Shown: piece by piece, positions 3,835-63,880 of the stretch
Layout of the letters: every line of letters begins with the position of its first letter
How positions within the stretch are numbered: position 1 is the first letter of the stretch
NCBI RefSeq assembly: GCF_026151205.1
Contig: NC_087077.1
Span: forward strand, 2,482,001-2,546,000
Length of the DNA: 64,000 nucleotides
Origin: Bolinopsis microptera
Taxonomy: Eukaryota > Ctenophora > Tentaculata > Lobata > Bolinopsidae
Direction: 5' to 3'
Translations under genes and position numbers: made by a program
The notes under the pieces: model-generated
Seen by the model: only the letters and a program-made list of their open reading frames with translations
What the model was told of the DNA's origin: nothing
Database searches by the model: none

Positions 3835-3913
3835 ATGGTGAGATTTATAGTCGTCATCTCCATTTTGTTAACGCTGGCTGAAATACACTCTTCGGATACA
3901 GGCGAATACAAGG
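3835..3913 (+). CDS. First exon with signal peptide
   Basis: An ATG at 3835 opens a frame beginning MVRFIVVISILLTLAEIHS, a good secretory signal: one Arg, then a hydrophobic core of about 13 residues. The exon ends at 3913 after EYK plus one base, directly before a strong donor (gtaagt), giving a phase-1 border that matches the next exon at 4842. The donor is the first of 18 identical copies in the 33-bp array that follows. If none of the donors is used, the signal-peptide frame stays open through the whole array to a stop near 4546, which would give a secreted 237-residue repeat protein. Confidence 0.65.
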
Positions 3914-6900
3914 GTAAGTACATATTTCCATCTAGCGAATACAAGGGTAAGTACATATTTCCATCTAGCGAATACAAGGGTAAGTACATATTTCTATCTA
4001 GCGAATACAAGGGTAAGTACATATTTCTATCTAGCGAATACAAGGGTAAGTACATATTTCTATCTAGCGAATACAAGGGTAAGTACATATTTCTATTTAG
4101 CGAATACAAGGGTAAGTACATATTTCCATCTAGCGAATACAAGGGTAAGTACATATTTCTATCTAGCGAATACAAGGGTAAGTACATATTTCTATCTAGC
4201 GAATACAAGGGTAAGTACATATTTCTATCTAGCGAATACAAGGGTAAGTACATATTTCTATCTAGCGAATACAAGGGTAAGTACATATTTCTATCTAGCG
4301 AATACAAGGGTAAGTACATATTTCTATTTAGCGAATACAAGGGTAAGTACATATTTCCATCTAGCGAATACAAGGGTAAGTACATATTTCCATCTAGCGA
4401 ATACAAGGGTAAGTACATATTTCTATCTAGCGAATACAAGGGTAAGTACATATTTCTATATAGCGAATACAAGGGTAAGTACATATTTCTATATTTCTAT
4501 CTAGCGAATACAAATAACGGAGTAGTTCGCTGTTTATTAGTCTCATGATTGAAATACTGATATTATATGGATAATATCCGGTTCCAACCGGAAATTATCC
4601 ATATATCAGTAGCGAATACAACTTACAAGGGTAAGTACATATTTCTATCGTTCAAATCGCCAATGAAATCGAATTTAATATTGCTGATGGATTTGGATAT
4701 CCGCGATACAGAACATCACTTCCATTTCCAAAGATAACAACGAGTTCAAAAATTTAATAAACCATCCAAATTTTAACTGCAGACTTGTTATGATCATTGT
4801 CAACATCAAGTTTTAAACTCGCTAGTAACTAACTTTTTTAGATTTGAGCGACTGTTTTACCTGGGGTAAAAAGTTTGCACCTACTCCGGAAATGAAGTTG
4901 CAGCCGATTGAGGCCCTCGTGTTCACAGAAGTTAAAAAACCGCTTAATCTGATCCGCGAGTGCTATCACAACTCCACGTGCTTATTCGTCACGTGCGATA
5001 ATACAGTGATGGACAATGTCACGTGCAATGTGTGGCCTGGTTGGACCGGGTTTACTACGGATTACTTTATTGACGAGAAAAACGCACTGGTTAGTCATCT
5101 TCCAAGTTGGACTTACAACACGACATGTCAATATTGGAGTTACAGAGGTTGGTTCAATTTATAGTCAGGAAAAGAGCGTCAATTTGGGATGTATTGTATA
5201 CGCCAATTTTCAAAGGAGACTTAAATTTAAAGTCTTAAAGTTTAAAATCCTTCTAAGCTGTCGGGTTCTTAAGCTGCATAAGGAGTGTTATAAAGTTGTT
5301 GTACTCTATAAGTGTATATTCACCTACAAGCATAACTGCTTGGCGTGATGAGGTACATCTTTGATTGGTCGAAGGTCTTTCAACAACACAGCATCATCAT
5401 TTTCATAGTAGTCCCCGGCTTATGACGGGTTCATAGCGGTATTAAACATGTTTTTCTGGGCCCAAACATTCTACGCTCCTACTATGCTATTACTGGTCTC
5501 TTGACTAACTCCCAATCATCTGTCCATATGGTATTGTTTCTGGACAAATAGATGGTATACGATGCCCTCAGGCTGATCTCAGCGATCTTCATGCAGGCCT
5601 TCTTCTTCTCTTTGTTGTTTACGTTCAGGTGGTTCATAAAGGTTGGGAGGCTATAGTTGTAAATGCCTCGAGCTCCCACTTCTACTGTCTGGAGCTTGCA
5701 AGCCCATCCGTTGGCTTCTATCTCTTCTGTCAGCTGCTGATATCTCTTCATCTTTCGCTTCTCTTGATCAGCAAAGTTCTGCTCATTTCCACAAGTCAGC
5801 TCCATTAGATAAACCTTCTTTGCTTTATCTGAATAGATCACTACATCAGGTCTTAGTGGTGTAGCTGCAATGTGCTGCGGGAAGTTCCTCTGTCTCTCAT
5901 CCTCATCAAATATTATCTTCCAGTCGTTGGCATCTGAAAAGAAATATCTTTTGGTCTTATGATGAGTTGGGTCAGCTAAGGTAACCTTCTCGCGCTTATT
6001 GCCTGCCTTGTGAAAGACCGACGGTGCCCTCTTCGATTCCTTGGCGATGTCGGAATTAAACTCTTCAATCTGTGATGAAACAGTCTTCATGATTTCACGT
6101 AGGACCTGATCATGGCGCCAGTTGAAACGTCCCTGTCTCAGTGCAACCTTGCAGAACGTGAGGATATGATTGAGTGTCCCTTGTTTGCTGCAGAGTTTAC
6201 AGTTTCCTGAAACGGCTTTATTCCAAAGCTTTAGGTTGCTAGGTGTTGACGCAGTGTCATGGATAGCATTGACATGAAACTTTAACAGTTCCGGACTAAG
6301 TTGATAGATCAGGTTATTCCACGTGGTGTCAAATGTCATTGTATTTTCCCATGTGAGAAAGAGGTTTTGCCGCTTTTTGTCAAAAAGTGAACAAATAAGT
6401 GTCTCTTCATCAAAGGTCCTCACCATGTTGGTTAGCAGTTTCCTCTCTGATGTGTCCTCATATCTTGTCTCATACCCGAGGCCAGTTGTACCAACTGCAG
6501 GTTTTCCAACTAACTCTTGGAAGTAAAGTTGGCGCTGACGGTCTTTCAGCTCTTTGGGATAAGACCACATCTTCTGTGTGTGTGCAATAGCCTTATGGTT
6601 AGAGTACACTTTTTTGATGTAGGGGTCACTTGAGTTACAAAGTTGGTGTCCCTTAATAAGTTGGATGACTTTGTACTCAGTGCAGATGTTTTTCAGCTGC
6701 AATCCTTTCTGGTCTCTACTCCTGTAGAGGACGGTGGTGGTACAAGGATGCGCAATCCCTAGCCACTTCTTAAGGTATCTGTTACACAGTGCCTCAAGCT
6801 CTCTCACAAATGTGATGGGTAGGTTATAAACAGTAAACCCCCATGACATCTTACTAATGATGAGGTGGTTATACACCCACGCCTTCATTGGACCGGTGAT

Positions 6901-9900
6901 TTCATCATTAGACGTTGTTTCCAAAAGGTCCTCTAACTTCTTCTTAATCATGGACCGAATTTCCTTCACCTCAAGATCTACATACATGTACATTCCTAGG
7001 AACTTCATTGGTGCTTGGATAATGGACGGCACCTGTTGTTCGCTTAGTACAAACTCTGCATCATAGGTATTGTACTTTCCTCCAGTACACTTCATAGACA
7101 TAGACAGGCACTTCGATGGTTTAGCCTTCATTTTCTTCGACCAGTCCAGGAACTCTTCTACTACCTTCAACATCTTCTTCATCTCCTTCTCGCTCTTCGA
7201 CAATAGGGCTAGGTCATCAGCAAATGCTTTCTTTGAGGTCTTGCTATCACTGAAGCTTGGCTCATACCCAACTTGACTGCACAGTACAGCTAGAAGTTCC
7301 AGTAGGATGTTGAATACTATAAGGAACAGGATCACGGACAGTGGGTCTCCCTGGAACAGGCCTAGCTCATACCAGAATGTTCTGGATGTCCATTTTCTGC
7401 ACTTAACTAGGACACTGAGGCTTCCATAATACTCAATTATAAGCTTAATGAAGCTTTCAGGTAGGTGGTACCGGCGTAGGGCATAAATAATAAGGCTGTG
7501 CGGGACTCTCCCATACGCATTCATAAGGTCAATCCAGATCACGTGGACTTGTCTTCTGTGGCTTTATTAACATCGATAAAATCATTTAAAAATGAACATC
7601 TATGAAATGCTGTTATCTGTTATTTAACCTCTCCTTTCGTTCAGACACGTTGCAGCACTGTTTGGAGTATTTTATCCCGCCTTCAGTTGAATTGAACGCC
7701 AAAAAACATAATGTTGTGAAGACCACAAGTTTAGTAGCTTGTTATGACACATGTAAAAATTCAAAAAAACGGATTGGCTTCACTTACTACTGGAAAAGCA
7801 ATGATTGTTGGATACACGATAAAGTCTTCGGGACAGTCTTGTCAAACAACGAAACATCACGTTCATATTCCTTAGTGTCAGCCCGAATGGGTTGCCTGTT
7901 TCAAGATAGCATTGGTAAGTAATCCAGCCCGCAGCCGCGTGTTATAACTTATAGTTACTGACACAAATCTGTCAGTATTTTAAGCATTTTAAGAATCATT
8001 TTGTTGATATTGTCGTGAAAGTCAAGGATCATTTATATTGACAATAGATAGGACAATGGATAGACAGTTATACGTTTGCTGAAAATGCTACGTATTTAAC
8101 AATAACAGAATACAGATCGCGTAGTGTTTACAGCCCAAAATTTACTCATTAAAATATCCCTCCAGATGAAGTTTGTTACAAACGTGAAATAAGTTATCGC
8201 GGAGATGAACTGGAGGAATTGAGAAAGGGTTCTGTTACTCAAGAAGCCATCGACTTTCGATACGCCTACCGGAATCCCAGTATTTGCAACAAAAGATGCA
8301 TGGAGTACAAGTAAGTTTTATCAGAGTGAGACCCAAACTGGGCCATGTCGTCATAAACGCCGCGCACTGTCTGTTGTGATGTTTTTCAATGTTATCAAAA
8401 CTCTTATATTGCAGCGGTAACTGCTTCTTTTTTACGCTGGATGTTATTACTCTCAAATGTACACTTCACGGCCCCAATGTGACGGCTGAGGACAACATAT
8501 TCTCCTATACTGCCAACTGGGCCTGTTTGTCTGGTGAGTGAGAGAGAGGGGTTTCCTTAAGGGGGACGGGAGGGGGTGGTCTTAAATATTCATGAAAATT
8601 TCAAAAGAATTCTCCTGAAGGCCCCTTGACCTCTCTAACCAATCACCATATATGCAATTTTAAAATATGTAAATATTAAAATATAGGCGTGCATAAAAAT
8701 TGGCTGAAATGTTTGAATGACCAACATCTTCTCCTTGAAAAACATTCGACGTTTTTTAAGTATAACCTTCTTGTCTACAGCTTAGTGCTGTCTCAATTTA
8801 TCAGACTGCATGGTCGGTAAAAATATTAAACGGCTAAAAAGCTGAGCACTTTTAAACATTTAGCCTGGCGGCTGGCCGGGTCTCCAGGTAATTTTGGTCG
8901 GGAAACAAAATATGAACGATTAATTCCCTCCAAATTTTCGCCAATGATTTATTACTTTAAATGAATAACAGGGATATATATTTTAAGATTCTTTATTTGT
9001 CCCCACCAAATCGCAAAAACATGTATTTTCCGATGTAAAGAACGATGTACCCTGCTTAAATATATATAATATATAACCTTTAACAGGCCTGCAATGCCCC
9101 GATGCGATAACAGGAGAACTTTATAAGGAACTGGAAATAAAATGCTTACTTCCAAAAAGAAAAGCAAAAAATAGAATCTGGAGAATTGATGGCATTCCTG
9201 TAGAAACAAATGATCCCAGTTTCGAGATGAAGTACCTGGACCCCTCAAATAGTGACTCCGGCTATGTATCACTGTTTATTCACAACGTGACAGAACGACA
9301 AGTTTGGATGAACATTTTTTTCCATTTCAAATCTCATCAATTCAATAGGAAAATTTTTATTTCTGACACGTTATCACAACAAAATGTCCATTAATGCAAA
9401 TGGATGCTTTTAATCAAGTTTGGATACCATTCTATCCCCGTGTAGTTTATGATCCATTAGTACAGTAGACAACAAATTCCCTTTGACAGAACACTTATTA
9501 GAGATCGTAACGAAATTTTCTCAGATAGAGGTGAACATAACAGTAAAAATGAAACATGAGCACAGTCACGTTATCAAGGTGACTTCTATTTTGTACAAAG
9601 GTAAGGGCTTTTTTTATGTCATTGCTATCATACCACTTTTATACAGAGATGCCCATAAGTCAGTGTGCAAACGAATGGGCTTATAACAAAGTCATTTTTC
9701 ATGTTGGAGACTTGCAACTTTGCAGATGACATACTGTGAGTGTAACTACATTATCCAACAGAACCCCCTATGTTGGAGCCCTTTGATGTTACGGAATCGA
9801 AAATCGACATGACTGAATTACAAGTATACAACATGAGTGAACCCGAGCAATTCCGTCTACCAGAGGGCTACGTAACGTACGGCGCAGATCTTGCAACTGA

Positions 9901-12900: not shown

Positions 12901-15900
12901 GACTTATCGACGGTGACCGATTTGGTTGGTGTAACCGACTGGATACAGTTGGATCTGGGAGAAAATTGGAAAATAGGGGGCTTCACTATTCACACAATGT
13001 TCTTCAGTGATTGGTTTTTTTGTCCTACACAGCCCTGTCTCCACAGCATATCAAATTATGAGGTTATTACTAATTAATTACTAATTATAGCAATTTCTAA
13101 TTAAAGCAATTACTAATTATAGCGATCAATTTAACGTGAGTTTAAACTTGATGAGATGACTGGACAGTTTCGTGTTTATCCTACGACCTACACTTATAGA
13201 TAACGTAACTGGTAATAAATTACTAATAATCTGCAAGCACCGCCTAACCGTTTCATATCTCGATTATCAGTTCCTTTCTCAGAGCTGCAAAGACGAAGAA
13301 TCAATCTCTATATCAGTGGGTTTTGAAACTTCCGATCGGTTTGAGATGAACCCAACACACGATTTGACTCAAAACGGTCAGATTTACAATTTCGAATGCA
13401 ATGTTGTCGGTCAGTACATAGGGTTCTTCTCTCTGTCTTTATTTCGGATTTCCGAAATCGTAGTTCTGAGGGGCACAGGTAAATTTAATTAGCAATTAAT
13501 TATTTATTTATTCATTTGATTACTTTTAATTATTTAATTAGTCCAAATTAGTAATTATTTAATAATGTGCGCTGTTTTATTTAACGGTTAAAAATTGTGA
13601 TATTGTATAATATAGTATAATATAATATATATTATGTTGAATGTGTAACATAGTGTGTTGTGTCTCCAAGGAACTTATTCGTTAAGCTGGAAGCTACCTG
13701 AGTAGTTAGAATTACATTTATAGGGCCAGGGTGCATAATTTAATGACCTTTTTCCATACCAGGTCACGCTTGAATATATCTTTTGGGGTATGTTTTTTGA
13801 TGTCGAAGCGTGGTATAAATATTAGAATTTATTGTTATTGGTATTTAATATTTATTTTCCCATAAAGTCTCACTTCTGTCTTCGTAACGCAGTTTTACAA
13901 ATATTTGGCCACCCAAACCAATTTACCCCCATCAGCTGAACTGTGCAAAGCTAACCACTTCTTAAAAGAACCGAACAACATATGTCTTCAATGTGATTCT
14001 GGGCTGTACAGTCACGGGTGCTCTTCCACGAGTTGTACTGAGGATAGGGTTGAGGTCTCAACCAGTCATTGGGGTTGGTGATAACTTTCTCTCAAAACCT
14101 TCAGTTTACAATCCTATAATACCTATAGATCAATTTTGATGTTAATACCGCATTCTAAGCCACAGCCATGTCCTAAGATACGTGTGCGGGAATTTTGGCT
14201 GTCACAAATCACAATCTTTAAATTTTGACTTCTTATTGCCCATCATCAAATACATTTTCAGAGCCATATGGAATCGGAGAAGAACCAGAGAAACTACAGC
14301 CAGAATCTGTATCACAAAGTATAACCACACTATCCCAAAAGGCGTCGTATGCTACAGACAATGATCTGTCTACTTACTCCCTAGCCTCCGCCTCCGATAG
14401 TGACATTTGGTTCAAAGTGGAGTTTTCCCAGGATAAAAACGTTTTTCTGTACGCGGTGCAAGTTTTTCAAGAGTTCTACTCAGACTGGTTCTATTGTCAA
14501 GACCCGGAAGATTATTGTCGTGTGAGCCAGGAAAATTATCAGGTCAGTTTATTATCGTAGACATATTATTATGGTTATTGGTTATCCGTTCATCTTATTA
14601 AATGAATTGCCTAGGAGTAGGACGATTCTTGAATTTTACTGGAATCTTATTATATCTCATTATATTGCCGCAATAATTGCCTGTCAAAGCTGAACGAGGA
14701 AATATAGAATTCATATCAAACAAATTTGCCGAACGACAACTTCTTGGTAACACTGAATAAACGATATGAATAACAGGAGTGCAAAAACAAAGGGACGGAT
14801 ATTCAAGTGGACGTTTACTCAGACGATACCTTGATCAACAACTGTGGTACTATTGAACTAACTGACGGACTAACTCAAACCAGTCAAGAATACCAAATCA
14901 GTTGTGGATATGAAGGAAATGCAGTCCTCTTCAGCAAATCAACGTCTGGCGAAGGTAATTCCTGATCGAAAAATAAATACAATTGAAAATAATACAAACT
15001 GTAGATTATCATGACTAACACAATGTCTTTAGTTAATAATAATAATTCAGTAAACTTATCACAAACTATAATATAACTGGTTAGCAACTCGCCAGGCTTA
15101 AAAGTTTAGAATATAATAATAATTATTACCTCGACACTAATATTACAAAGTTTACTATTTAATTTTGTTAACCAACAGGTTGGATCAAGCTATATGAAGT
15201 GGTTGCGTATACACAAGGTATTGTACACAATTTTGCACATTTTTTGGGTATTGTTATGCTTATAGTTATGATGCAATTTATTGTAACGGACCATAACTGT
15301 AAGGACGTTGATCCTCGTTTTTTCTTTATTTGATCACCTCTAACGCAGTCCTGCCGTGAAAAATAATGACCTTCGCGGGATAACTGACAGTTCATTTTAG
15401 GACCAGTATATTAATTTAATGTTCATAATTAATTGCTGTTTTTAGATAAAAAATATCTAATTCTATATCCTCCCCTAGCACAAGACTGCCCTGGCGGTCA
15501 GCACCTTGTAGCAGAAACCAACACTTGTGTGCTGTGTCTGGAGAACACTTACAGTGCGGGTGGTTTCCTCACCCTTGAGTGTACTTCATGCCCTGAGGGG
15601 TTTACTGCTCCGGCAGGGTTCGCTTCTGAAGAGAGTGACTGTGAATTGGGTACGTGTTTGAATGGTTTATGAGTATGGCCCAACTGTTTTTTAAGATCAA
15701 ATTTAGTACGGAAAAAATTCAAAGGTCAGAAAATAACCGGTTCTTTTGCGATAGTCAAAACGCGACAACTAGCGCTGGATGGCGACAACTAGCGCTATCC
15801 AGCGCTAGTTGTCGCCATCCAGCGCTAGTTGTCGCTATCCAGCGCTGGATAACGCTGGCCAGCGCAAAATATATATGTTCGATAATTGTCGCTATCCAGC

Positions 15901-18900
15901 GCTAGTTGTCGCCATCCAGCGCTAGTTGTCGCCATCCAGCGCTAGTTGTCGCTATCCAGCGCTAGTTGTCGCTGGCTATGCGACACTGTCGCACGCGATA
16001 GTTTGCGATGGCCAGCGCAACTGGCCATCGCAGAAAACAGTTCGATAACTAGCGCTGGATAGCGACAACTAGCGCTGGATAGCGACAACTAGCGCTGGCC
16101 AGCGCTGGCCAGCGCTAAGCGATAGCCAGCGCTGGCCATCGATATCCAGCGCACAATTTTTGCGCTATTACTCGTCAGCTAGCGCTGGCCAGCGCTAGCC
16201 AGCGCTAACCAGCGCTAGCCAGCGCTAACCAGCGCTAACCAGCGCTAGCCAGCGCTAGCCAGCGCTAGCCAGCGCTAGCTGACGAATAATATCGCATTTA
16301 TATTGCGCTCATGGCCAGCGCTGGCTGACGAGTAATACTAATATCGAGCGTGCTAAATCACTCTACAGTCGATCTTCGAGATTGTTCTAAAAGGGCCCCC
16401 GATGGTTGTAACCAACTTGAATCAATGCAATGTATTTTCGGACGCTAATTCCGAATCAACCCCCATGACATAGGGTTAAAATGCTCTCCTGACGAGATAT
16501 TGGCGAAAAACTGTATCGATCACGTGATATGACCGTATAAGAGGCATCATGTAGCCGGTGGGCCCAACATGATACGACATATCTTGACACGTCGGGGTTT
16601 GTCGGGATTTGTCAGGGTTTGTCGGGGTTTGTCGGGGTTTGTCGGGGTTTGTCAGGGTTTGATGGGGTTTGACGGGGTTTCCGGTTTGTCGAGCCTGGAG
16701 GCTTTTTTTTTTTTTTTTTTCTTTTTTTTTGAGTCTCCCAACAAAAAGCCGAGACGGAGTCATCAAGCTTTACGTGGAAAAACACTATACAAGAAGGCCT
16801 CATGTAGCCGGTGGGCCCGAGGCAAAACCCCTCGACAAACCCCGACAAACCCCGTTTGTCGGAGTTTGTCGGGGTTTGTCGGGGTTTGTCGAGCCTGGAG
16901 GCTACATGATGCCTTATAAGGAAGTTAGTCTAATTTCTCGTCGGGGTTAGGGTTTCAGCATATAATGTTTTTGTTAAGGATTGGGTTAGGGTTAGGGTTG
17001 GGATCAGATTAGAGGGTTAGGGTTTCGAAAAGTCGTTCAGAACCAGCTAGAGTCAGAGAATGGGTTAAAAAAGTCACGTTACAGTCGAGTGTAAAGTGAT
17101 TAATCATCATCCGAGTAATATCACAAGTATATGATTTTGATACATTGCGCTGGCTAGCGCTGGCCAGCGCTGGCTAGCGCTGGTTAGCGCTGGTTAGCGC
17201 TGGCCAGCGCTGGTTAGCGCTGGTTAGCGCTGGCTAGCGCTGGTTAGCGCTGGCTAGCGCTGGCCAGCGCTAGCTGACGAGTAATAGCGCAAAAATTGTG
17301 CGCTGGATATCGATGGCCAGCGCTGGCCAGCGCTGGCTATCGCTTAGCGCTGGCCAGCGCTGGCCAGCGCTAGTTGTCGCTATCCAGCGCTAGTTGTCGC
17401 TATCCAGCGCTAGTTATCGAACTGTTTTCTGCGATGGCCAGTTGCGCTGGCCATCGCAAACTATCGCGTGCGACAGTGTCGCATAGCCAGCGACAACTAG
17501 CGCTGGATAGCGACAACTAGCGCTGGATGGCGACAACTAGCGCTGGATGGCGACAACTAGCGCTGGATAGCGACAATTATCGAACATATATATTTTGCGC
17601 TGGCCAGCGTTATCCAGCGCTGGATAGCGACAACTAGCGCTGGATGGCGACAACTAGCGCTGGATAGCGCTAGTTGTCGCCATCCAGCGCTAGTTGTCGC
17701 GTTTTGACTATCGCAAAAGAACCACATAACCTATATATAAAACTCTTAGCTTTTGTCTTTCCAACCTTTGAATGGTTGTATGGCAACTTTTCATTTTTTA
17801 ATTTTTAATATAAATTTAGGACAAAAAAAAGTCAAAGGTCAGAAAATAACCTAAACCTCTTAGCTTTTGTCTTTCCAACCTTGAATGTTTCTTTTAAAGT
17901 TCAAAACGAATACTTTACCGCCAAAATAGAGCCGATAGGTTGTGCGAAATTCATTCTTACGTACTTGTATAAAAATAATTCTAAAATATTAGTTTCTAAC
18001 CAATACTTCTACCAGATTACGTTGATGTTGTCGTAGGACCCTACTCCATCGGGGAGACAGTTGTGCAAGAGGGACTCGATCTCCTTGGAACCACCACCCT
18101 TGCTCAACATGTACAGGGGAAACATTTCAAACACCTTCTTCGGATAAGCTGGTTTCAAGACAGAGTAACAGTTGAAAGCTTATGTAACGACAACACAATG
18201 TCAATAGTGTGCGAGGCAGAGGATCAAGTTATGGTCGTCACAGAATTGGAGCACCACTTCATGTTATACTTTTACTCTCTCGTAGAAGATCAAAATGATG
18301 CGGATAGTCCCCGTAAATTTGTATTGGATTATAGTGAGTGTCGAGAGGAAGAGAGGGAATATGAATTAGTTTTTCTCTCGACCATTCCTTCATTTGGTCC
18401 AACTACTGTGTCAGGTACGATTTTTAAATTCTTTAATTCACATTGGACAGATAAATTACGCTCGGGACGTGTTCACTCTTTATACATGCAACGAAACAGA
18501 GTGTAGTGATAAAATATAAACCTTAATAAATCCTAGATTGTGAGGTTATTCGCGTTGATGACCGTTGGGATCTCTCGATTGCTGCTGTCCCCAGTCAGCT
18601 CCCAGCACAGTCTATGAGTGAGGTGGATGTCGGGTGTGAGGCGGGGTATTTCAATGGAGGTGATAAGGTGATCACCTGTCTGGGAGACAGCTTCTATATC
18701 GTTCAAAATAATGGACCTCTATGTCTTGCACGTGAGTAAAATTGTTTCCTCATCCTACATATTATGCTTGTTATCATTTTTAAAGATGATCATGAAGGCT
18801 TTCAGCTCTAGACAGGTTTTCTGCATTGATTATCACTAATGAAAGTGAAAGTCTTGTGAAAGTGAAAGTGAAAGTGAAAGTAAATGACAGTTAAAATCAA

Positions 18901-50300: not shown

Positions 50301-50806
50301 GTACCATTCATCATCTTCACTGATTTTATGATCCTCATACTCTTCATCACTCATACACAAGCAGGCCTTATGAATCCAAACCTCGCACTCCTCACACTGC
50401 AAAGCATCTACATGCCATTCAACTCTGGTTTTACATATAGGACATATGTCATCTATCTTCTCCTTCTCCTTTGGTCTACATTTTTTCTTCTTATCAACTC
50501 TTGTTTTATGATTGATGTTTACTTCTAGGACTTGAGGTCTATTTAACAAGGGTTTCTCTGTTCTGATGTGGCGCCGAAAGTCATATCTCGAAGAAGATGA
50601 TTGAAGTTTGATAGAATTGGTTGAGTTTAATACTTTCTGATTATACACAGGTTCGTTAGTACTTTCTTCTTCAGCTTGTCCGTTGGTCTCTACATGTTCT
50701 GTACTGGCTGGGGCACTATCAGTGTGCCCCGTTTGCCCGTCCTTGTTTGCCATCCCTGAACTCAATAAATGTAATAGATTTGTAGTGTTGTAATTAGTTT
50801 AATTTA
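47331..50806 (-). mobile_element. Complete PHD-finger retroelement with 13-bp target duplication
   Basis: The element is bounded by the direct repeat gagtcagttggta at 47318-47330 and 50807-50819. On the minus strand it has about 50 bases of leader, one long open frame and about 100 bases of trailer with no poly-A. A variable-length target duplication and absence of LTRs fit a non-LTR element. The intact frame and clean duplication indicate recent insertion, upstream of and divergent from CEP78. Confidence 0.8.
47433..50753 (-). CDS. Retroelement polyprotein: PHD finger, reverse transcriptase, nuclease-like domain
   Basis: The first ATG in the frame is at 50753 and gives MANKDGQTGHTDS; the open frame itself reaches back to a TTG at 50765. 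The N-terminal third has a PHD finger (CPICKTRVEWHVDALQCEEC, then WIHKAC and WYCDCCQ). The RT follows with motif A VDADIAFNRLN, motif B GATQGDVAAMAEYAIG and catalytic YADDS near 48955-48971. A late section has a Cys/His cluster (CDCGAKNDHNHILSCKRGGY) and a nuclease-like block, RLDISARGVW...FFDVRIFNP, near 47815-47890. The gene has no frameshift or stop over about 1106 residues. Similar PHD-less RT proteins are common in coral and fish genomes; the exact LINE clade could not be assigned by eye. Confidence 0.75.
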   Translation of the reverse strand: MANKDGQTGHTDSAPASTEHVETNGQAEEESTNEPVYNQKVLNSTNSIKLQSSSSRYDFRRHIRTEKPLLNRPQVLEVNINHKTRVDKKKKCRPKEKEKIDDICPICKTRVEWHVDALQCEECEVWIHKACLCMSDEEYEDHKISEDDEWYCDCCQLNRSNNLMWGTMAGEGCIRSELTGIYDEIITWCRNLFMVPRGKSGEKFIKELTRLLYLFVNKTAWESLSLQLVHIFIPIMLQKPSSKSKARDNAKYLVDRLEKWKDGDLNSLMDEARVIQEKLKRRKKSEDPSKMKGFSRLMMVGKVCQAMKLINNEDSVVGVHTLNRKIKSLLQEKHPKAETPPADILLPITAPQAQSVIFAEISAELVEGSGGPTHLDADGWKHILCSKAYGKLPFQLCGAIAEFAKRLCVEDVNPESLNEFVACRLVPLNKGDDKRGNPGVRPVGVGEVLRRIVGKVVIGVIKDDIQEAAGPLQSCAGLESGIEASIRAVKRTWEDPKTEAVLLVDADIAFNRLNRKAAIHNIRQLCPPFHQYLKNTYQKSAKLIVNDTYSCEIIYSDEGATQGDVAAMAEYAIGIRPLINILASVTKLGELMQAWYADDSAAAGTLKKLRLWWDLLSVNGPKLGYFPKAVKTILILKEKSLLPAATFLFGETGIEITCDGERHLGAVIGGEEARETYVKKKVEKWVKDVEELSDIALDEPQAALSGYTKALCHRWTFVMRTIQDTKDLFIPLEKCIREKFIPAIIGRNVSDLHRRMFALPVRLGGLGIVNPVEIAEKEYQTSLKITEELVDLIYHQETSLMKLDKIKIKGRVDCLKLVKELRLKKELAEIMSEVDENTRESLQLVQEHGSGAWLTCLPIQQLGYAYSKQDFRDAVHLRYGWDIPNTPRFCDCGAKNDHNHILSCKRGGYVNYRHNNVRDSVAEYLRLVTKDVRIEPLLTPIESANFQQKGNNADKARLDISARGVWSTFERTFFDVRIFNPKSPTYQGKTMPQLYTLHENEKKNQYMNRVLQLEKGSFVPLVFTTTGGMAPEAKCFIRRLAVLIATKTKEDYSQVMCNIRTRLSMDIMRSVLVAVRGVRGKAKKAWTAPISNVSFNLIPEEKSYEG

Positions 50807-50996
50807 GAGTCAGTTGGTAAGATAGCTTTACGAAATTGTGTACGATTCCTTTTAAATTCTGATGATACTTTTGTATTTCAGGGCAGCTAACAACAATAGT
50901 ATAATACTAAATATTTGTATTCCATCTTTAGTTCATTATAGTTTTGTAATTTATTTAATTATACTAACAATATTTCTTAATTATAGGTACAGTATA

Positions 50997-52496
50997 ATGA
51001 AAGCTTCTGTACTGGATCGATACAAAACAGCATGTGCCACAATGGGAATAGCTCAAAATTCATTCATTTGCAAGGGATTGGAGAAGCCGATTCTTCATGT
51101 AAGGGTTGGCAAAATTCAGCCAGAAGAATGGACACCTATCATTAAATGTTTGGAGAACAATTCATCTATCACAGAGGTTATTATAGAAGCCACAGTTCCC
51201 ACCCACTGTGCATATGTGAAAAGATCAACAACTCCCTCGTTTACTTTGACGGTGAAAAACCAATTCATGAAAAGTCTTTCAAGCTGTCTAGTGTGCTCTT
51301 CTGCAATTCATAGGCTATCCATCATTAGTGTACCCTTGAAGAAAACTCAGTTAGAACATTTATCACGGGGTTTGTCAAGAAACCAGTCCTTGGAGTTTCT
51401 TTGTCTGAAAGGATCTGTCATAGGACAGAAAGCGTTCAACGAAATATTTGCCACAGTAAGAACGTCGTTGAATATAACCCATCTCGACTTTTCTTACTGC
51501 AAATTGTCAGATGAATCGTGTTCCCACATAGGAGCTTTACTTAGGTCTCAAACCTTGGAAAGACACACACAAACATGGAAACACACTTTGCGCTACAATA
51601 ATCCAGATGCAGCAAATGTGACAGGTTTAAAGCGAATCACATTGAATGGCAATCCAATTGGTGATGAGGGTTGTGAAGTTATAACAGATGCTATGCAAGA
51701 TGATTATTGGATCAGGGCTCTTGATCTTCAACAGTGTGATATAACGGATGAAGGTGCAAAGCTGTTTTTAATATTGCTGGAGGATAATGCTTGTATATCA
51801 GTTTTGGATTTAAGGATGAATCCACAAATCAAAGATGGTAAGTTGTTAGAAAAGATCAATGATTGTTTGGGTCGAAACAAACAAAATGATGCAGAATGTT
51901 TTGCTGTTGGGGAATTACAGGAAACTAAAAAGGCTCCAAAACCAAAGAAAACTCCCAGGCGAAGCATCTCAAATATCAATCTTAGAAACTCACTGAATGA
52001 AGCTAGAACTCCCAAAAAGGCAAACGAATCTAAAGCCCCTAAGAAGGTGACTCAATATGAGAATTATTACAATTCTATGCTTAAAAATTCAGTTGTTAAG
52101 AACATTGAACATTTGAATGACATATCTTTACACAATGACAAAGACAAGTTTTCCCCTATTCTGATTCACCAGACCCCTCCAGTAAAGCAGGCTGTTGCAT
52201 CTAAACAACAAGAGGAAAAGCAGATTTTTGCCATGCTTGATGAATTAAAAAATGACTTGGAAATATACAAAAAAGAATTATATCTTGAGAAGGAGAAGAC
52301 CAAAGTCTTGCAAAGTCAAGTTAATGCCCTTGAAAGAGAGAACTTGTTCCTTAAAAACCAACAACAGATTGATAAAAGTGAACTAGAACCAGAGCTCTTG
52401 GATACTATTGAAACATCCTTCAGTCAGTTTCACAATTTTCTCGATATGCTCAAACAAGCTGGCTATGGGGACCTTTGTCAACTTGTAAACAAATAG
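50997..52496 (+). CDS. CEP78: Centrosomal protein of 78 kDa
   Basis: The product starts MKASVLDRYKTACATMG and is 499 residues, shorter than the roughly 690-720 of the human protein. It has the CEP78 leucine-rich repeats (SLEFLCLKGSVIG, ITHLDFSYCKLSDESC, LKRITLNGNPIGDEGCEVI, IRALDLQQCDITDEGAKLF, VLDLRMNP) and a distal coiled coil ending in the family signature (SFSQFHNFLDMLKQAG). CEP78 acts at the mother centriole in ciliogenesis and centrosome control. The whole coding region is one uninterrupted exon. An acceptor just before 50986 suggests at most a 5'-UTR intron. A lysine/proline-rich linker lies between the two domains. It sits head-to-tail with a ciliary dynein gene. Confidence 0.9.
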   Translation: MKASVLDRYKTACATMGIAQNSFICKGLEKPILHVRVGKIQPEEWTPIIKCLENNSSITEVIIEATVPTHCAYVKRSTTPSFTLTVKNQFMKSLSSCLVCSSAIHRLSIISVPLKKTQLEHLSRGLSRNQSLEFLCLKGSVIGQKAFNEIFATVRTSLNITHLDFSYCKLSDESCSHIGALLRSQTLERHTQTWKHTLRYNNPDAANVTGLKRITLNGNPIGDEGCEVITDAMQDDYWIRALDLQQCDITDEGAKLFLILLEDNACISVLDLRMNPQIKDGKLLEKINDCLGRNKQNDAECFAVGELQETKKAPKPKKTPRRSISNINLRNSLNEARTPKKANESKAPKKVTQYENYYNSMLKNSVVKNIEHLNDISLHNDKDKFSPILIHQTPPVKQAVASKQQEEKQIFAMLDELKNDLEIYKKELYLEKEKTKVLQSQVNALERENLFLKNQQQIDKSELEPELLDTIETSFSQFHNFLDMLKQAGYGDLCQLVNK

Positions 52497-53058: not shown

Positions 53059-56000
53059 ATGTCTGTGTTTGTGGAGGAACGTCTCAGATGGTTGGAAGGA
53101 AAGTTATCATTATCTCTACCTGTCAAGACAGAACAGATAAAGACGCTGTTTAGTGATTCTTGCAACAAGTTAGTAGTGTTCAGTAGGTAGTTAGTTTAAA
53201 GTTAGTAGACACAATTCAGTAGACACAAGTTAGTAGACACAAATTAGTAAACTTCTCTGTTTAATTTGGTATACTTCACTCATTTAGATGGTAAATAAAG
53301 CAGAAAAAACGGCGTGGTTCTATTGATCATGAATCGTTAAAATTGTAATAAATTACACTAGTTACATAATTGGGGTATTTGACAATTAGCTGATTGAACT
53401 CGTTTCAGGGATACACTACTTGACTTTTTAAACAATGAAGACATCAGAAGACTCTTTGTGGGTGTGGAGGGTTCAGTGGTCAACATCTCGCTCACCCACC
53501 CTCCTTCCTCACAAAAATGCCTCGTCTTTCTCAAGGGGGGACACATCGGCAAAGTCAGAAAAGATGCAATAGAAGAAAGTATCACGTTGTTTGACTTGTC
53601 CAAGAATTCGGTGGAACAGATAGAAGGTATGATGGATAGTGTGTTCGTGCCACTGATCCTCACAGAGGACTCTCATCGTGGGGAGAAGATGATGGAGAAC
53701 TTGCACAAACTTGCTTCTATCCTTCAGATCACTGCTGGAAACGAACGGGTATATTACGACCTATGAAAAACTACATTTTATAATGATTGTTTGACGATTC
53801 AATTTGGAAGAGCAAGCAACAATGTATTCCGCTTATTTAAAGAAATATCATTTATAATGCATATTTCCATTTTCCATGTTAGAATTGACAATAATGACAT
53901 GTTCAAGTTAAAGGTTTCTACAGTTTTCTTATCTTACTAAGTATACATACATCCTTTTTATTAAACCTGCACTTTCAGGGAGATGTAGTGTTACCAGTAC
54001 CCCTACTAGACGTACTACTAGAATCAGCAGTTGTCAACAACAGCGTCATTGTCATCTTGGAGACAACCGTCATCTCCTGGACCAAGCAGATCAGAATTGC
54101 TCTCAAACTTGATCTCGACAAAGCTCTTAGAGCTCAAAAAGTTGTAGGACCTTTGGCTGAGCTCAAAGTAAGCTACTATATCTAGTTGAATGGGCGGATT
54201 CTATTTTAGGTTATCAAAATGTTGCATTACAACTCCATCAAGTAACAAGAGTCTTCATGCACTAATAATATTTTGGATTTTTAACAGCTATTGCACATTG
54301 AAACTAATTTCTTAACTAGTAAACTGATTTACTTTATCACCTGCAATGCGGGTTCCGCATCTTATTACACAGGAACACTTAAAATTATTTGTTTTATAGA
54401 AGAGTTGAACGTACTCTTAAAAAAATAATTTCACTAAGTAATAAACCTTCCAAGGTCTGGGAGGAAAGACAAAGCAAGTTGAACTCGATCCTTGAACAAC
54501 TTGACTGTCGGCTAGCCACTCAGATTCTGAAGGAGCTGGCTAACCTGGGAAATGTTTACGCTAAGTCGTTTACCGTTGTTATCGACGATATAAAGCAGGT
54601 AAGCCTTTCTGCTTTCTACTATTTTATTTTCAGCTCAAAAGTTATATTGATAGATTATTAACCGTACAATTTGATATTTCAGTTTCTCATTCAGGCTCAT
54701 CTTGTATATTAGCTAGTGTTCGTAGCAAAATCTCAATATGTTATGTTTTATGCTGAGCATGAACATACGAACTTACAAACATACAAACCAGGCACTAACC
54801 GAAACAGAAGACAATATCATGTACCTCAAACCACTGGAGCCGTATCTGAACAAGCTAGCTGTGGTTACTACCACTGATAAATCAATTAATATCATCGCTC
54901 CCATCGTTCATCTCCTTGGTTAGTATTGTCATATTTTGAATATCAGGTATTTTTATGTTTAATTAACTCAATTCAAGAAGCTTCAATTTTTGCAAGAAAG
55001 TTTTCATTCGCTATAGAATCAGAAAATTAGACTACTTTTCAAAATAATAAAATGTCCAGATTTGCTCTGGAGACACATACTGTACTTTTCAAAGTAACAA
55101 AATGTCCAGATTTGATCGTACTTTTCAAAATAATAAAATCTCCAGATTTGATCTGGAGACACAGCAGATACTACCACGAACCACGAAACTTTAAGCGGCT
55201 GTTACGTCACCTGTCTACTTTGGTTGTGAGCAGCGCTCATCGCTTCGTGGGGGCTCAGATTCTCAGCAGCACCGAGAAAGCGTTCACAAACTTAAAACAT
55301 GCTCTGAAACTCTGCGCTAAATTCAGAGGTTGGTTGTTCAACTTTGAGTGGATATTTTATATTTATTTAAAGTTGTTGCTTGTATTGTACATTATCTAAG
55401 GACACAAGCTGCCTGCATGAAAGGTTCATTGTTTCGATAGCATATTAACTTAAAATGTATTAATATTTCTAGCGATAAGAGTTTAATCATTGTTGAATTG
55501 TTTTCAGTACAACTTTCGGTAAAAGTTTCAAATTAAAGTTCAAGCTAAATACTTAGCATCTTACTTTAGGCTCTGAATTAGTATTTTCACACTTTAACGC
55601 ATTTTTTGCACATGTAGTACATCATACATGTCAAATAAATCGAAGACTCTATTGCACAGGTTGTTATCTTGACAAGCGGGAGAAGTGTAACGAACACAAC
55701 AAACAACAAGTCAGTCAGTACAACGAAAACAAGAAAAGTGAAAATGGAATTAAGATGGTTACTGGACCCTTCATAACCATGCACATGAAGAGACACCATG
55801 GTTTAATTCTTTGTACAGTACTTTGTACAGTACTTTGTACAGTACTTTGTACAGTTCTTTGTACAGTACTTTGTACAGTTCTTTGTACAGTTCTTTGCAC
55901 AGTTCTTTGTACAGTTCTTTGTACAGTTCTTTGTACAGTTCTTTGTACAGTTCTTTGTACAGTTCTTTGTACAGTTCTTTGTACAGTTCTTTGTACAGTT

Positions 56001-59000
56001 CTTTGTACAGTTCTTTATAACCTCTAGAACAGTTCTGGAAAACCAGACTATTTACATTTTGCACAACCTATTTCCAAGCTATCTTGAGCACATCCCCCGC
56101 CCCCCAGGTATGTTTACTGTAAATAACCTCTCTCTCTCTCCCCAGGTATGTTTAGTGTAAGCAACCAGGATGCAGAAGAGAAAGATCCCGATATGTGGAC
56201 CAACTCTTCGTGGCCAGCCCGCAACGCTCCTCCTTTCTCGATCCTGAACAGCTTCATGGAGAGAGCTAACGATGTGTTGGACCTGGTCCAGACCGCGCAG
56301 CACTTCAAGAATCTGGAGAGTGTTGCAGAGATAGGGGGTGTCGGAACAAGAGTCTTGGTGGGTACTGGGTTTTTTAACCTCACTTCATTCTTGATGATAA
56401 CCATTATGTCTATCATGTCATAAACCTTACTTTATCGAACTCTAATACAACTTTTTGATGTTATTGACCCAATTATGATAATCGTGCTAGATAAAGAAGT
56501 AAAAAACGTTTTTTGATGAAAGACATTATGTAAATAACACACCCTGGTCCCCAACAGATACCATTGTGACGGAGATACACGGGAGGTTCGACTCAGCAAT
56601 GAAGAGTTTCATGACACTGACAGAACAGAACGTGCTGGATGTCAGCAAGCAGGACGAGCTCTTCGAACAGGAGTTCTTCGAGTTCCGAGCTCTTGTCCGG
56701 GACTTGGAGAACCAGATGGCTCACGTTATGAGGATATGTTTTGATAGGTGTGCTAACACTTCAGCTCACATCAGACTCTTAGAGGTTAGTTGCGAGTTAT
56801 TTACCAGCTTAATTAATCACCAGGGTAAAAGATAGAGAAATGTGCGATTCCGCAATTTTTATTTTTATTGCAGCCGTATGTTTCAACTGACTAGCTTGCA
56901 AATTATGTTCTCTTGGTCATTTTTGATAAAGCTTTGTTGACCACTGTGCTACTTATGTATGATATCCATACATAAATACTTCAAAGAAAACGTTAACTCA
57001 GAAAAGGGCACATAGCCAGTCAAAACCATGATTATGTTTATGACTGGCTTTGTGGCCTTTTCTGAATTTGCCTTTGAAGTTTAACAAACATCAAATGAAT
57101 GGAAAAGTTCATGTTTTATTGTTTCTGTGTTCCGAGACGATTACAAACTACACTGTAGCTGTTTGTTTCTATTTTTACCGCACACAAGCAAAGTTTTAAT
57201 ACATTATGCGAACAATCCAGCATTGAGCGGCGAGTTTCTGCAAAGAGTGGAGTGACACTGCAACGTGCATGTGTCTGATAGTGCAATCGTGCATAATCCT
57301 ATGATCTGCCAATATAATTATAATATGCTGAATCAATGCAGCTATTAGTATTATACAATTTGAAGCTATGATACGGCGGCTTAGCGGTGTTATTGCCTGT
57401 ACTTGACAGCTAAAAGCTTCTGTAAAATTAAAATTTTCAGATTAAAGAAGAAATTATAATATCAAACCTTGGGCCTGGTTAAAGTAAAGCATGCAATATA
57501 ATGTAGTGGTTGCTATGTAGTGGTTGCTATGTAGTGGTTGCTGGTAAAAAGAGGAACAAATAAATTCCATTATTAATGGATAGTGGGGATATTATCCTCG
57601 TCTTATCGATTGTATTCAGGTATTTGCTGGGGTTAGTGGCAGGGAGAGCGTGCAGCGTGCCTTATCAGACAAACTCTCCAAAATTGTATCAGGTAATAAT
57701 ATCATCCTATTTTAATCATGATTAACATTTTCGTTTAAAATATGATTACACAAGTGAGGTAATCCAAATTATAGTTCTCGAAAAAGACACGTCGATTCCT
57801 CCCAAAAGGTAATATAAACCGGACATGTTACCAGGTATGATGGACGAGGTGTTGGATGTTAAGGATATGTTAGACCGGAACATCTCAGCTCCAAACCACA
57901 AGAACATGCCAGACACAGCGTCCCATATGTGCTGGTTACGGGCACTTAGAGAGAGGATTGTTAAACCTATGGAGAAGCTGAGGGGTACTATACCTGAACT
58001 TCTGAGTAATAATGAGGTGAGTTGCACCGAAAACAAGTCTGGTTAAATGGGTTTTAGATTTGATTTTGAATCAAATAAAACTGTCCAAATAAATCAAATA
58101 AAACTGATTTTGAGGTTTGCCTGGCCTTTGCCTGGTCATTCTTGTTCAATCCTCAGCTGAACAGTCTAACTCTAATACTAATGGACAGTGGTGTCTCACG
58201 CACTGCAGCATACCATGTGAATAGCTTAGAATAGCAGTGAATATTGCACTGCATGACACATTCCATCCCCTGCACTTCAAATATACTAATTTCACGCGTT
58301 CTTACACTCCACTTTCCGTCAAATCAGCTAATATTAGATCGTGCACTGTCTGTATTGGGTCACGTGAGAGTCACGTGTTTCTTATAATATATGTGAATAT
58401 AATATGTGAGCATTATATGTGGATTGAATATATATGTGGACCAGCTTCTGTAAAAAGTATATGGCTGAGATGTGTGGAAAAAGTAAGGCTGTGAATGGTG
58501 GCCTCTATAATATTGGAGCTCCTCACGGCGACATATTTACTGTAGTGAATGAATGGGCTAGTCCAGGGCAACTGCGAAAATTACTGATTGTGCTTGAACA
58601 GGTTGCATTAGATTATCGATTAAAATTATCGTAAGTGCGATTTCGCGTGCAACTTATAGAGGCGAGCGCCCTAAAAGTATTCATCGTGTTATATTTTTCT
58701 TGCAATCCATGAAATGATAATCTATGCTATCTGCTTATCAATTATAGTTGACGGGGTCAAGATCACATTTATTGGTTATCTGTGGCAATGAAAATCACGT
58801 AAAGCATTAGAAGAAGCGCGTGATTTTAACTATAGGTAGTATTAAGACTATGGCATACCTCTTGATCTGCACACTTGTTACAATATATCACCGTTTTATT
58901 ATGTACTTGTTCACCGTTTTGATTCACTTTTTCACCGTTTTTTCACACAGTGTAACACCACCTCATACTTCACAGTTTTGGTTCGTTGACGAAGATTCTG

Positions 59001-62000: not shown

Positions 62001-63880
62001 ATAATTCAGGTGGATACGAACACTCTGAAAGTGACAGCAGCCAGACTGGAAACCATCGCCACTCACTACAACAAACTCCGCAGTAGGATCAGACCCCACG
62101 AGGAGCAACTCTTTACTGCTAAGATAGCTCAGATTGAGACTTTGTTGAGACAAGGTATTTGCTAAGATAGCTCAGATTGAGACTTTGTTGAGACAAGGTA
62201 TTTACTGCTAAGATAGCTCAGATTGAGACTTTGTTGAGACAAGGTATTTACTGCTAAGATAGCTCAGATTGAGACTTTGTTGAGACAAGGTATTTACTGC
62301 TTAGATAGCTCAGATTGAGACTTTGTTGAGACAGGGTATTTGCTAAGATAGCTCAGATTGAGACTTTGTTGAGACAAGGTATTTGCTAAGATAGCTCTGA
62401 TTAAGACTTTGTTGAGACAGGGTATTTGCTAAGATAACTCAGATTGAGACTTTATTGCTCCCTAACCTAATCTACAGTTGAATCGAACTAGTCTTAGTTT
62501 GTTCTTATAGTTGAGTGTTTGTATTTTAACATAGGCTTTTTCAGGAAAAGAATCTCTAACGTGGAAGAGTCTAGAAACAGATGATTTTATCGAGGAAGCA
62601 ACATCCCTGCTGTTGGAGGACTGCTTCAAGAAGTTACAGGCAGTCCAAGCAGCACAGAGTCAGATAGAAGCTAAGGTGGCACACTGGCATGGGTACTTGT
62701 GTCAGAGCCTCTTTACCAGTGACCAGTCCTGCTTTATTGAGGATTGGATCGTAAAACAGAAAGAGGTTTGTGGAATTTAGATTTTACTTGCCTTCATGCC
62801 TCGTTCAGTTTAATGTCAGAGGGTTGGAGTAACGATCTTTAGGAATCTATATTTCTATTTATTCACCCTTCGAACTCATTATCTACCTGCCTAATATTTT
62901 TATCGGAAGCTAAACATAACGATCATTTAATTCCCTGGTACGTTGAATGATAAGCAGTTTTTAACAGATGTTAATGATGGTCAGGTATCAGAAGGATATG
63001 CAGTGTTAGCCAACATGTACGGAAGTAAGATTAGCAGTGTGGTGAAGGAGGTCCACAAGTTGCTGCAGGTGTCCGAGAACAGTCCAGCTTGGCAGAGTTA
63101 CACTGCTTTCCTTGATAATCTTATCAGCACAGGTAATATAATGTGTGACAGCGTAACACTTTAATAATCGGTGACATTTTCAAACTATGTGACACTTGCA
63201 TTGGCAAGGCTATGCTGCATTCTACCACTCTGTAATACCTTAGAGATAATCTACAATGTGTAACATCATCTCTCTACAGTCTGTAACTGTGTGACACTGT
63301 AACACTGTAACACTGTGTACTGTCACACTGTAACACTTAATTTAAAGTAAATGTTACACACCCCTGGGCCCTGAACCCCACCTTGTCCAGGTCTGGTAGC
63401 AGCAATGAGGGACGCTCTGACACAGCTCTACAACCTGATAGCACTGACTGACCCAGAGGATAAACCTAAGATACTGGTCAGAGTGGAGCTAGTGGGGGGT
63501 ATGGTACAGTATCATCCTCCCATTGATAAGGAGTCTGCTGATATCAGTGTCCAGGCAAGTTGGGTCGTACTTGCTATTTTGTTGTTCTGTTCATTTTTTG
63601 TAGCATTTATTGATTATTCGTAATTATATATTATGGCAATTGCATGATTCCATCACAATACTTTTACTGACATAATTCAAAATGTTCAGGAGATGGTGTT
63701 TAACTGGGTAACCCAGATGGTAGATTACTGCGAGCTGATACCACGTCTGGTTCCAGACTGTGAGTCATACGCCAAGGTTATCGAGCAGACCCCAGAGATT
63801 GTGGACCTCATTAATAGTATCAGGGGTGTCATGGACGATAACCACCAATCCTGCCAGCTACTTCAGGATAATTTCATGAG
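53059..63880 (+). CDS. Axonemal dynein heavy chain, N-terminal tail (partial)
   Basis: Eighteen exons join in phase: 53059-53186, 53409-53748, 53979-54167, 54455-54598, 54792-54918, 55146-55328, 55660-55800, 56146-56361, 56558-56784, 57620-57692, 57835-58016, 59323-59481, 59645-59743, 62010-62154, 62545-62765, 62985-63132, 63391-63554 and 63690-63880, about 1025 residues. Landmarks of the DHC_N1 tail: WEERQSKLNSILEQL, ALTETEDNIMYLKPLEPYL, IWRHSRYYHEPRNF, EIGGVGTRVL, RLLEVFAGVSGR, HKNMPDTASHMCWLRALRER. The tail dimerises and binds intermediate chains; the motor lies downstream of the window. The EIGG-x-GT and RLLEVF signatures indicate an axonemal rather than cytoplasmic chain; the paralogue (DNAH number) was not settled. 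The 63554 donor is GC rather than GT. Confidence 0.85.
55034..55165 (+). repeat. Threefold repeat of a dynein splice acceptor
   Basis: Three copies of tacttttcaaa(a/g)taa..aaaat(g/c)tccag followed by atttg(c/a)tc run in tandem, with AG dinucleotides at 55058-59, 55108-09 and 55144-45. The third is the acceptor of the real exon at 55146; copy 1 also includes the next exon bases ctggagacac. This is the same organisation as the large arrays upstream, at an early stage. Confidence 0.9.
55808..56018 (+). repeat. 12-bp array with acceptor-like units
   Basis: About 17 copies of ctttgtacagt(a/t) begin eight bases after the donor of the dynein exon ending at 55800. Early copies have A and later ones T at the last position. 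Each unit contains ttctttgtacag, a plausible 3' splice site. The intron also carries the duplicated acceptor at 56101-56150. Confidence 0.95.
56101..56159 (+). repeat. Twofold repeat of a dynein splice acceptor
   Basis: ccccaggtatgttta occurs at 56102 and again at 56141. The second copy is the acceptor and first bases of the exon at 56146; the first lies 38 bases upstream, separated by a CT tract. Confidence 0.9.
56979..57080. repeat. MITE-like hairpin
   Basis: The outer acttcaaag/ctttgaagt and inner tcagaaaaggg..catagccagtca/tgactggctttgtggccttttctga pair around a loop of about 12 bases. It lies in the long dynein intron 56785-57619, which otherwise shows only AT-rich sequence and a fourfold ggttgctatgtagt repeat near 57500-57545. 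Confidence 0.8.
58017..59322 (+). other. Dynein intron without recognised content
   Basis: Only short frames are present (for example 58237-58634) and none resembles a dynein segment. A ttttcaccg word recurs three times near 58890-58945. The exons on either side join in phase 0. Confidence 0.6.
60514..61492. mobile_element. Second large foldback element with palindromic-repeat arms
   Basis: The ends ttggtcgtttagctccgg and ccggagctaaacgaccaa are perfect complements 979 bases apart. Both arms continue with gcaacgtctat repeats (outer), then arrays of the self-complementary ccggctagtagccgg (inner), meeting near 61003 almost without a loop. The element is a near-perfect palindrome of about 490-base arms and contains no open frame. 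It sits in dynein intron 59744-62009, whose remaining sequence is featureless apart from several ccggata words near 59810-59850. Confidence 0.9.
62110..62455 (+). repeat. 43-46 bp repeat of a dynein exon end plus splice donor
   Basis: About eight copies of ctaagatagctcagattgag followed by actttgttgagacaag/gtattt. The first copy is the end of the coding exon 62010-62154 and its donor; the others lie in the intron. Copies vary in a short tactg insertion and decay towards 62455. In the exon frame each extra copy reads into a TAA. Confidence 0.95.
63245..63345 (+). repeat. Degenerate tgtaacac repeats
   Basis: Words tgtaacac and tgtgacac recur irregularly in the intron between the dynein exons ending at 63132 and starting at 63391. 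Confidence 0.7.

Follow-up and report, generated by a model that had tools for sequence, protein, structure and literature searches.

Minisatellite arrays that span exon-intron borders in the ctenophore Bolinopsis microptera

Do minisatellites arise at splice junctions by preference, or do some tandem duplications simply happen to cover one? This question was raised by a stretch of 64,000 nucleotides from the ctenophore Bolinopsis microptera (contig NC_087077.1, positions 2,482,001 to 2,546,000), in the following called the window. The original prediction, made from its sequence, had been that minisatellites in two unrelated genes were seeded repeatedly at splice junctions and grew from there into the intron. 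The arrays are probably mirages as described from amphioxus, that is, ordinary minisatellites that came from tandem duplications and happened to straddle an exon-intron border.

Arrays holding splice junctions in the window

Tandem Repeats Finder (TRF) was run on the window and returned the arrays with the predicted coordinates and periods. Five arrays had a smallest unit of at least 25 bp, and all five held a splice junction inside the unit. They are listed here with a slash at the junction.

3902-4492 (+), 33-bp donor array, 17.9 copies (TRF); the unit GCGAATACAAGG/GTAAGTACATATTTCTATCTA contains the donor, and the donor of the exon follows 3913 (ACAAGG/GTAAGT)
25996-36388 (+), 57-bp acceptor array, about 182 copies (TRF and wraparound alignment); unit with ACATCAG/GTTGCGGAGAAGCCCAGGCTCCTCTAAAC, acceptor before 36360 (TTTACATCAG/GTTGCGG)
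39537-41725 (+), 39-bp acceptor array, 56 copies (TRF); unit with CACCTGCAG/AGTGCCCGGAAC, acceptor before 41714 (ACCTGCAG/AGTGC)
55034-55153 (+), three imperfect copies around the acceptor TCTCCAG/ATTTGATC, of which TRF reports two copies of 36 bp from 55082; acceptor before 55146 (ATCTCCAG/ATTTGATC)
62112-62457 (+), 43-46-bp donor array, 43 bp x 7.7 by TRF; the unit ends with the donor that follows 62154 (GAGACAAG/GTATTT)

The border sat within the terminal repeat unit in each of the five. With two donor and three acceptor arrays, both border types are affected, and the copies within an array were 90-98% alike (TRF). The automatic exon filter recognised two of the five junctions, and the other three were placed from the sequence, the gene model and matches to PF00084. 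Homology backs four of the five, two in dynein and two in sushi exons. The prediction of units that contain the exon-intron border itself was borne out. That two genes are involved may also be right. The arrays would be split three to two, since those at 3904, 25996 and 39540 seem, by the gene model, to share one large sushi/ephrin-receptor-like gene for a secreted protein.

The other two arrays belong to a dynein heavy chain gene, the model of which runs from 53.4 kb to past the window end. The exons next to its arrays, and an additional case with two copies, are as follows.

54792-54918 (+), dynein heavy chain exon that precedes the mirage intron (gene model, PDB alignment)
55146-55328 (+), dynein heavy chain exon beginning DLIWRHSRYYHEPRNF, gap-free across the join
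62010-62154 (+), dynein heavy chain exon ending in LLRQ at the junction (gene model, PDB alignment)
62545-62765 (+), next dynein exon, beginning GKESLTWKSLETDDF (gene model, PDB alignment)
56101-56165 (+), CCCCAGGTATGTTTA(C/G)TGTAA present twice, with the second copy at the exon starting at 56146 (sequence and gene model only)

When 54792-54918 was joined to 55146-55328, the product aligned without a gap across the join to an outer-arm dynein beta chain among solved structures (E 2.6e-10), and the join 62154/62545 gave a gap-free alignment to a solved dynein as well (E 1.6e-5). The same gene carries two more such arrays downstream of the window, given here in window-extended coordinates. A 47-bp acceptor array at 69327-70102 precedes the exon YSYLWKDD..., the first residue of which aligns weakly (2.4 bits) but collinearly to dynein FDYLWKQD. 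A 32-bp donor array at 77668-77837 lies at the end of an exon in which dynein homology reaches the exon edge, with several of the listed chains covering the query to its last residue, 48; this array was called an acceptor at laxer settings of the gene caller, and the donor reading comes from sequence inspection and the gene model. The arrays at 80465, 90186, 95698 and 100708 in the 40 kb downstream of the window (L001 to L004) were not at a called junction. A dynein intron in L003 contains an open reading frame (ORF) of 343 codons (6769-7797), which may be of the GIY-YIG/Penelope-like type.

In the sushi/ephrin-receptor-like gene, the features around the three arrays are these.

3835-3913 (+), first exon, signal-peptide-like, beginning MVRFIVVISILLTLAEIHSS, open frame from the ATG, phase-1 end
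4500-4650 (+), continuation of the 33-bp array, broken by a small hairpin with arms at 4564-4583 and 4586-4605
36360-36518 (+), sushi exon with its first 29-30 bases in the 57-bp array unit (PF00084, 1.9e-6, residues 12-46)
41714-41953 (+), sushi exon joined to the last 39-bp copy (PF00084, 1.7e-6, protein 1-52 on profile 1-56)

The PF00084 match of the exon at 36360 begins only at residue 12, and its start is therefore based on the sushi exons nearby, at 22173, 22502 and 22820, which have the same CG directly behind the acceptor. The product of the first exon (3835-3913) had no match in Pfam. Its junction at 3913 is proposed from the open frame, the near-consensus donor and the exon at 4842, which continues in phase from this donor; the region behind the junction could be coding instead. 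The ATG frame is open through all 33-bp copies (3832-4548), so that further copies may be exonic.

A coding repeat of 11 residues in place of a donor array would agree with the unit length (33 = 3 x 11), with this frame, which stays open across every copy to 4548, and with the gene caller, which puts the exon end within an inner copy. All observed unit variants (CCA/CTA, TCT/TTT and TCT/TAT in frame), however, alter a residue; each copy contains a near-consensus donor, the GT being kept in 18 of 18 copies; a stop comes right after the array; and it is the first donor that is in phase with the exon at 4842. A coding repeat appears doubtful on this evidence. In the tail of the array, a near-perfect hairpin (4564-4605) has pieces of the unit, TAGCGAATACAA, on either side, which looks like the insertion of a short element into the array.

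Origin of the arrays

If the arrays are mirages, a short tandem duplication of DNA across a border would have been the birth step, and slippage or unequal exchange would have lengthened the array. The exon-joined copy would be spliced and the other copies removed as part of the intron, which would shield the gene and allow the array to survive. Conserved coding residues are found inside several of the units (LIW, YLWKDD, IDLENR), and this indicates that the exon edge was the source or template of the repeats and not their product. Across 20 arrays, the exonic share of the unit varied between 0.25 and 0.91, and a uniform distribution, as for random segments, was not rejected (Kolmogorov-Smirnov p = 0.14). 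These are 20 of 23 arrays; three were left out as misregistered or partial (L056b, 0.02; L033, 0.14; L036, 0.23), and for the array at 77687 the automatic value of 0.49 was corrected by eye to 0.59. Twenty of 26 arrays outside the window lacked a junction by automatic calls, seven of them also by sequence, as expected of a general process.

The geometry was also part of the prediction, which took the position of the exon-joined copy at the end of the array as a sign that the units had grown out of the junction. This position is indeed seen. It is, however, the only arrangement that keeps the gene working and is not independent evidence for outgrowth. Within the 57-bp array, the order of variants was not clearly clustered (70 of about 183 copies split), and the border copies were not systematically divergent in the arrays checked.

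The presence of splice sites in the units would also be expected if reverse splicing, or another copying of intron ends at the RNA level, had inserted junction sequence repeatedly, as the original prediction considered. Cutting at splice sites predicts a unit edge at the junction, and such an edge was present in none of the 20 arrays kept for the position test; moreover, the units are contiguous exon-intron DNA. An origin at the RNA level is accordingly close to negligible. Introner elements are dispersed families that carry splice sites and make introns, and the likeness of the arrays to these lies in repeats with splice sites. In a loose first look with one array and one candidate scored, the stretch 3800-4400 matched only its own place in the genome.

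Selection for redundant splice sites, the other cause suggested at the outset, would mean that extra copies help in the recognition of weak sites. In ten junction arrays, only one change was found among the 879 letters of GT or AG (one deleted copy not counted), and some mirage sites look weak, such as GTATTT and GTCGGT. Yet in the wraparound alignments 8 of 64 splice-signal columns were variable compared with 71 of 358 other columns (p = 0.22), and the scores of mirage sites and ordinary sites were alike (donors, n = 12, p = 0.12; acceptors, n = 11, p = 0.37), in a comparison biased to strong sites, since consensus words had led to 3 of the 12 donors and to 7 of the 11 acceptors. The inner acceptors of the 57- and 39-bp arrays, inspected by eye, lead to a stop in the frame of the exon; the use of an inner copy in the 33-bp array would add 11 residues in frame. 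Selection of this kind is very unlikely as an explanation of the arrays.

Junction arrays beyond the window and the role of chance

The assembly comprises 264.65 Mb, of which 13 contigs of 15-26 Mb hold 97.5%. The amphioxus genome is about twice as large and has more chromosomes. The sample consisted of twelve stretches of 10 kb, placed at fixed positions of other chromosomes, and of five stretches near dynein and ferlin genes, among which L056 was chosen because of L042. The fixed-position sample yielded a donor array of 35 bp x 121 that ends a weakly EGF-like exon (L012) and a donor duplication of 97 bp x 1.8 derived from the gene model (L008). Two donor arrays in a gene of the ferlin region were found by eye in L056; for the exon at 560-735 no homologue was found in PDB, and its array is placed by frame and context, while at 7313 the gene caller was on the wrong strand and the donor reading comes from sequence inspection.

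For the chance test, 26 arrays outside the window with units of 25-110 bp and copies at least 80% alike were compared with automatic gene calls. From strict to lax settings, 4, 5, 5 and 3 arrays spanned a junction, with 2.05, 2.51, 2.96 and 3.24 expected. Under strict settings the observed number was roughly twice the expected one, under the laxest it no longer exceeded it, and the difference was not significant; for donors only, 2 were observed versus 1 to 1.5 expected. The gene caller misses short cysteine-rich exons, and junctions were therefore also sought by eye, which gave 6 of 26 spanning arrays (five donor and one acceptor), a soft count in that the arrays were scrutinised more closely than the background and sequence inspection covered just 7 of the 20 arrays lacking a junction. 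The prediction that every array sits at a junction thus holds for the window and not beyond it, where the fraction falls to between 3 and 5 of 26 automatically and to 6 with the additions by eye. The five of five in the window is atypical.

The second approach was a genome-wide search for words. The donor word AGGTAAGT occurred three times with gaps of 18-48 bases at 1426 places, with 10772 single hits. The three-copy matches per single hits of the control words were 12/7977 for TGAATGGA, 74/14109 for TTGGAGAA, 357/10608 for AGTGAAGT (GT swapped to TG), 457/9956 for AAGAGGTT (4.6%) and 575/12773 for TGAAGTGA (4.5%). The acceptor word TTTCAGGT had 332/15961 and its reverse TGGACTTT 19/8703; the resulting 2.1% is inside the control range of 0.15-4.6%. 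All these match counts are dominated by long arrays. Two apparent enrichments were dropped: the hundred-fold one of the donor word over its reversed word (12 versus 1426), as other controls reach 357, 457 and 575 matches, and, for the same reason, that of the acceptor word over its reverse.

Arrays were also counted per Mb among those listed: 7 in 14.1 Mb for AGGTAAGT, 17 in 264.65 Mb for TTGGAGAA, 9 in 80.7 Mb for AGTGAAGT and 17 in about 110 Mb for TTTCAGGT. These rates assume that the lists are complete and in genome order up to the last array given, and they include units below 25 bp for all words. The acceptor word had 2.4 times the rate of one control among the arrays listed. For the acceptor word any rise is weak at best, and an excess on the acceptor side is not demonstrated. 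The idea that minisatellites are seeded at junctions in general did not find support, as the excess outside the window was not significant in the automatic test and a clear genome-wide excess of arrays existed for the donor word only.

The arrays behind these words were inspected where they could be placed. Seven donor-word arrays were listed, six fetched and five resolved, three of them at an exon; one of the two dropped arrays repeats the unit of another, and one stretch is entirely array. From the 17 acceptor-word arrays listed, 14 were fetched, excluding two arrays of 10-bp units and one repeated unit, and seven lie at an exon start, four by homology and three by open frame only, one of which also received a good score from the gene caller. 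For the remaining seven of the 14, no exon was visible there or the placement was ambiguous. The unrelated word TTGGAGAA gave 13 arrays to examine among 17 listed, after three with units below 25 bp and one repeated unit had been left out. Two of these lie at junctions, both donor: L042 at a ferlin exon that ends IDLENR, as in myoferlin, and L037, by the gene model only.

Exons next to the splice-word arrays have homology to a ubiquitin-conjugating enzyme (UQ_con, probably UBE2W-like), GMP synthase, P4-ATPase, ephrin-receptor-like and dynein proteins and, below the Pfam cut-off, to reprolysin/ADAM and sushi domains. Junction arrays elsewhere in the genome include dynein, ferlin, GMP synthase and P4-ATPase exons. 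The units of the junction arrays as a whole are 26-97 bp long (109 bp as TRF reports one). Arrays with different border-containing units do recur in several unrelated genes, as had been proposed.

Random scattering of the arrays, with the window as an outlier picked by a scanning reader, would explain why the 3-5 of 26 in the automatic test were near the expected 2.05-3.24 and why the acceptor word stayed within the control range. The six of 26 with additions by eye and the genome-wide excess of the donor word speak against pure chance, which is possible although unlikely.

Several results weigh against mirages that arise without regard to the border. The donor word was commoner in three-copy arrays than each of the five control words, and its array rate was 7.7 times that of TTGGAGAA (p 0.0001) and 4.4 times that of AGTGAAGT (p 0.005), or 6.6 and 3.8 times when a repeated unit was counted once. 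Donors make up five of the six junction arrays outside the window, additions by eye included. Something beyond pure chance may be acting at donors. The protein homology across two joins would agree with correct splicing despite the copies. A modest excess over chance on the donor side is likely.

A possible cause would be that donor junctions are hotspots, at which putative polymerase pausing, R-loops (as in the original prediction) or occupancy by splicing factors break or re-copy the DNA and seed duplications. This would agree with a rate of donor-word arrays 4 to 8 times that of two controls per Mb (p 0.0001 to 0.016), with the five donors versus one acceptor among the 26 outside arrays, by-eye calls included, and with the two donors versus no acceptor among the 13 arrays of the unrelated word. 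The rate of AGGTAAGT, however, comes from seven arrays (six unit families) in the first 14 Mb listed, three of five resolved arrays being at an exon, and control words reach up to 4.6% in arrays (AAGAGGTT; TGAAGTGA 4.5%). The ferlin cases are not independent: the two donor arrays of L056 and the one of L042 seem to belong, together with L041, to a single ferlin gene, and L056 was fetched because of L042. Moreover, the window has three acceptor versus two donor arrays, and the automatic test gave two donors versus 1 to 1.5 expected. Donor hotspots are a tentative idea that we consider rather unlikely. Preferred over it is the reading of the arrays as mirages from ordinary tandem duplication.

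Other features and related systems

Some arrays approach a splice site without spanning it: those at L043 691-1691, L041 652-1507, L015 5633-5891 and L054 1405-1647 come to within 7-20 bp of a dynein or ferlin splice site. In the window, the 12-bp array TTCTTTGTACAG x 17.5 at 55807-56016, each unit of which resembles a tract-plus-AG acceptor, also ends short of a junction, with a dynein exon 130 bp further on. L016 contains two long arrays with 465-bp units (925-4686), each unit with a whole immunoglobulin-like exon, which form an inverted pair and are a tandem duplication at the scale of an exon.

No predicted exon edge of the gene model was near the 16/32-bp array at 46231 or near the 10- and 20-bp arrays in a palindrome at 15.7-17.7 kb. 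This palindrome (15739-17723) is made of these 10- and 20-bp repeats; its two arms of 413 nt (15739-16151 and 17311-17723) show 99% complementarity, and it looks like a foldback element. The ORF at 5485-7563 (-) has a reverse-transcriptase match (RVT_1), and that at 47436-50798 (-) an RVT_1 match below the cut-off and a weak PHD-like match; both are probably non-long-terminal-repeat elements inside or between genes. Between the two genes, an uninterrupted ORF of 546 codons at 50856-52493 (+) encodes leucine-rich repeats (LRR_6, 1.5e-11).

The term mirages was coined for arrays in amphioxus Adh3, and further cases were described from globins, TnC and PGBD5. They are tandem units of 10-160 bp that contain the boundary at the 5' and 3' ends of introns, many with AG/GT signals; according to these reports, splicing is normal there, and the arrays vary in length and are somatically unstable (PMC3087553, PMC3902484). 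The arrays described here share with them the boundary-containing units, the occurrence at donor and acceptor borders and a unit length of 26-97 bp, which is within that range. They differ in a copy number of up to about 182 versus 3-6 for BflGb6, and in that reverse-transcription PCR and length polymorphism are known there, whereas here one assembled haplotype was used. In ctenophores, no report of mirages was found among the papers listed in the literature searched, which covers few subscription journals. As far as seen, the arrays are a known kind that is new in the ctenophore lineage.

Two other systems can be compared. In intron gain by tandem duplication of AGGT-containing exon pieces, as in the potato RNA-dependent RNA polymerase gene (RdRp; PMC4974935), duplication likewise yields extra splice signals, but the copies described here extend a pre-existing intron. 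The CeRep25B minisatellite lies near alternative exons in Caenorhabditis elegans (PMC4039745) and is also linked to splicing regions, but it is one repeat family within introns, whereas the units here are locus-specific and contain the junction.

Mirages in a genome other than amphioxus that can be scanned as a whole make it directly testable whether junctions attract tandem duplication. With up to about 180 competing splice sites before the real one, the arrays offer a natural experiment on site choice by the spliceosome, and they bear on whether these duplications contribute to intron length and to the origin of new introns. The donor excess, if real, would point to a mutation process linked to transcription or splicing. 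It is an unlikely but conceivable outcome that intron starts are birth hotspots of minisatellites in this ctenophore genome, where transcription or splicing would sculpt the DNA at donor sites in perhaps thousands of introns, independently of amphioxus.

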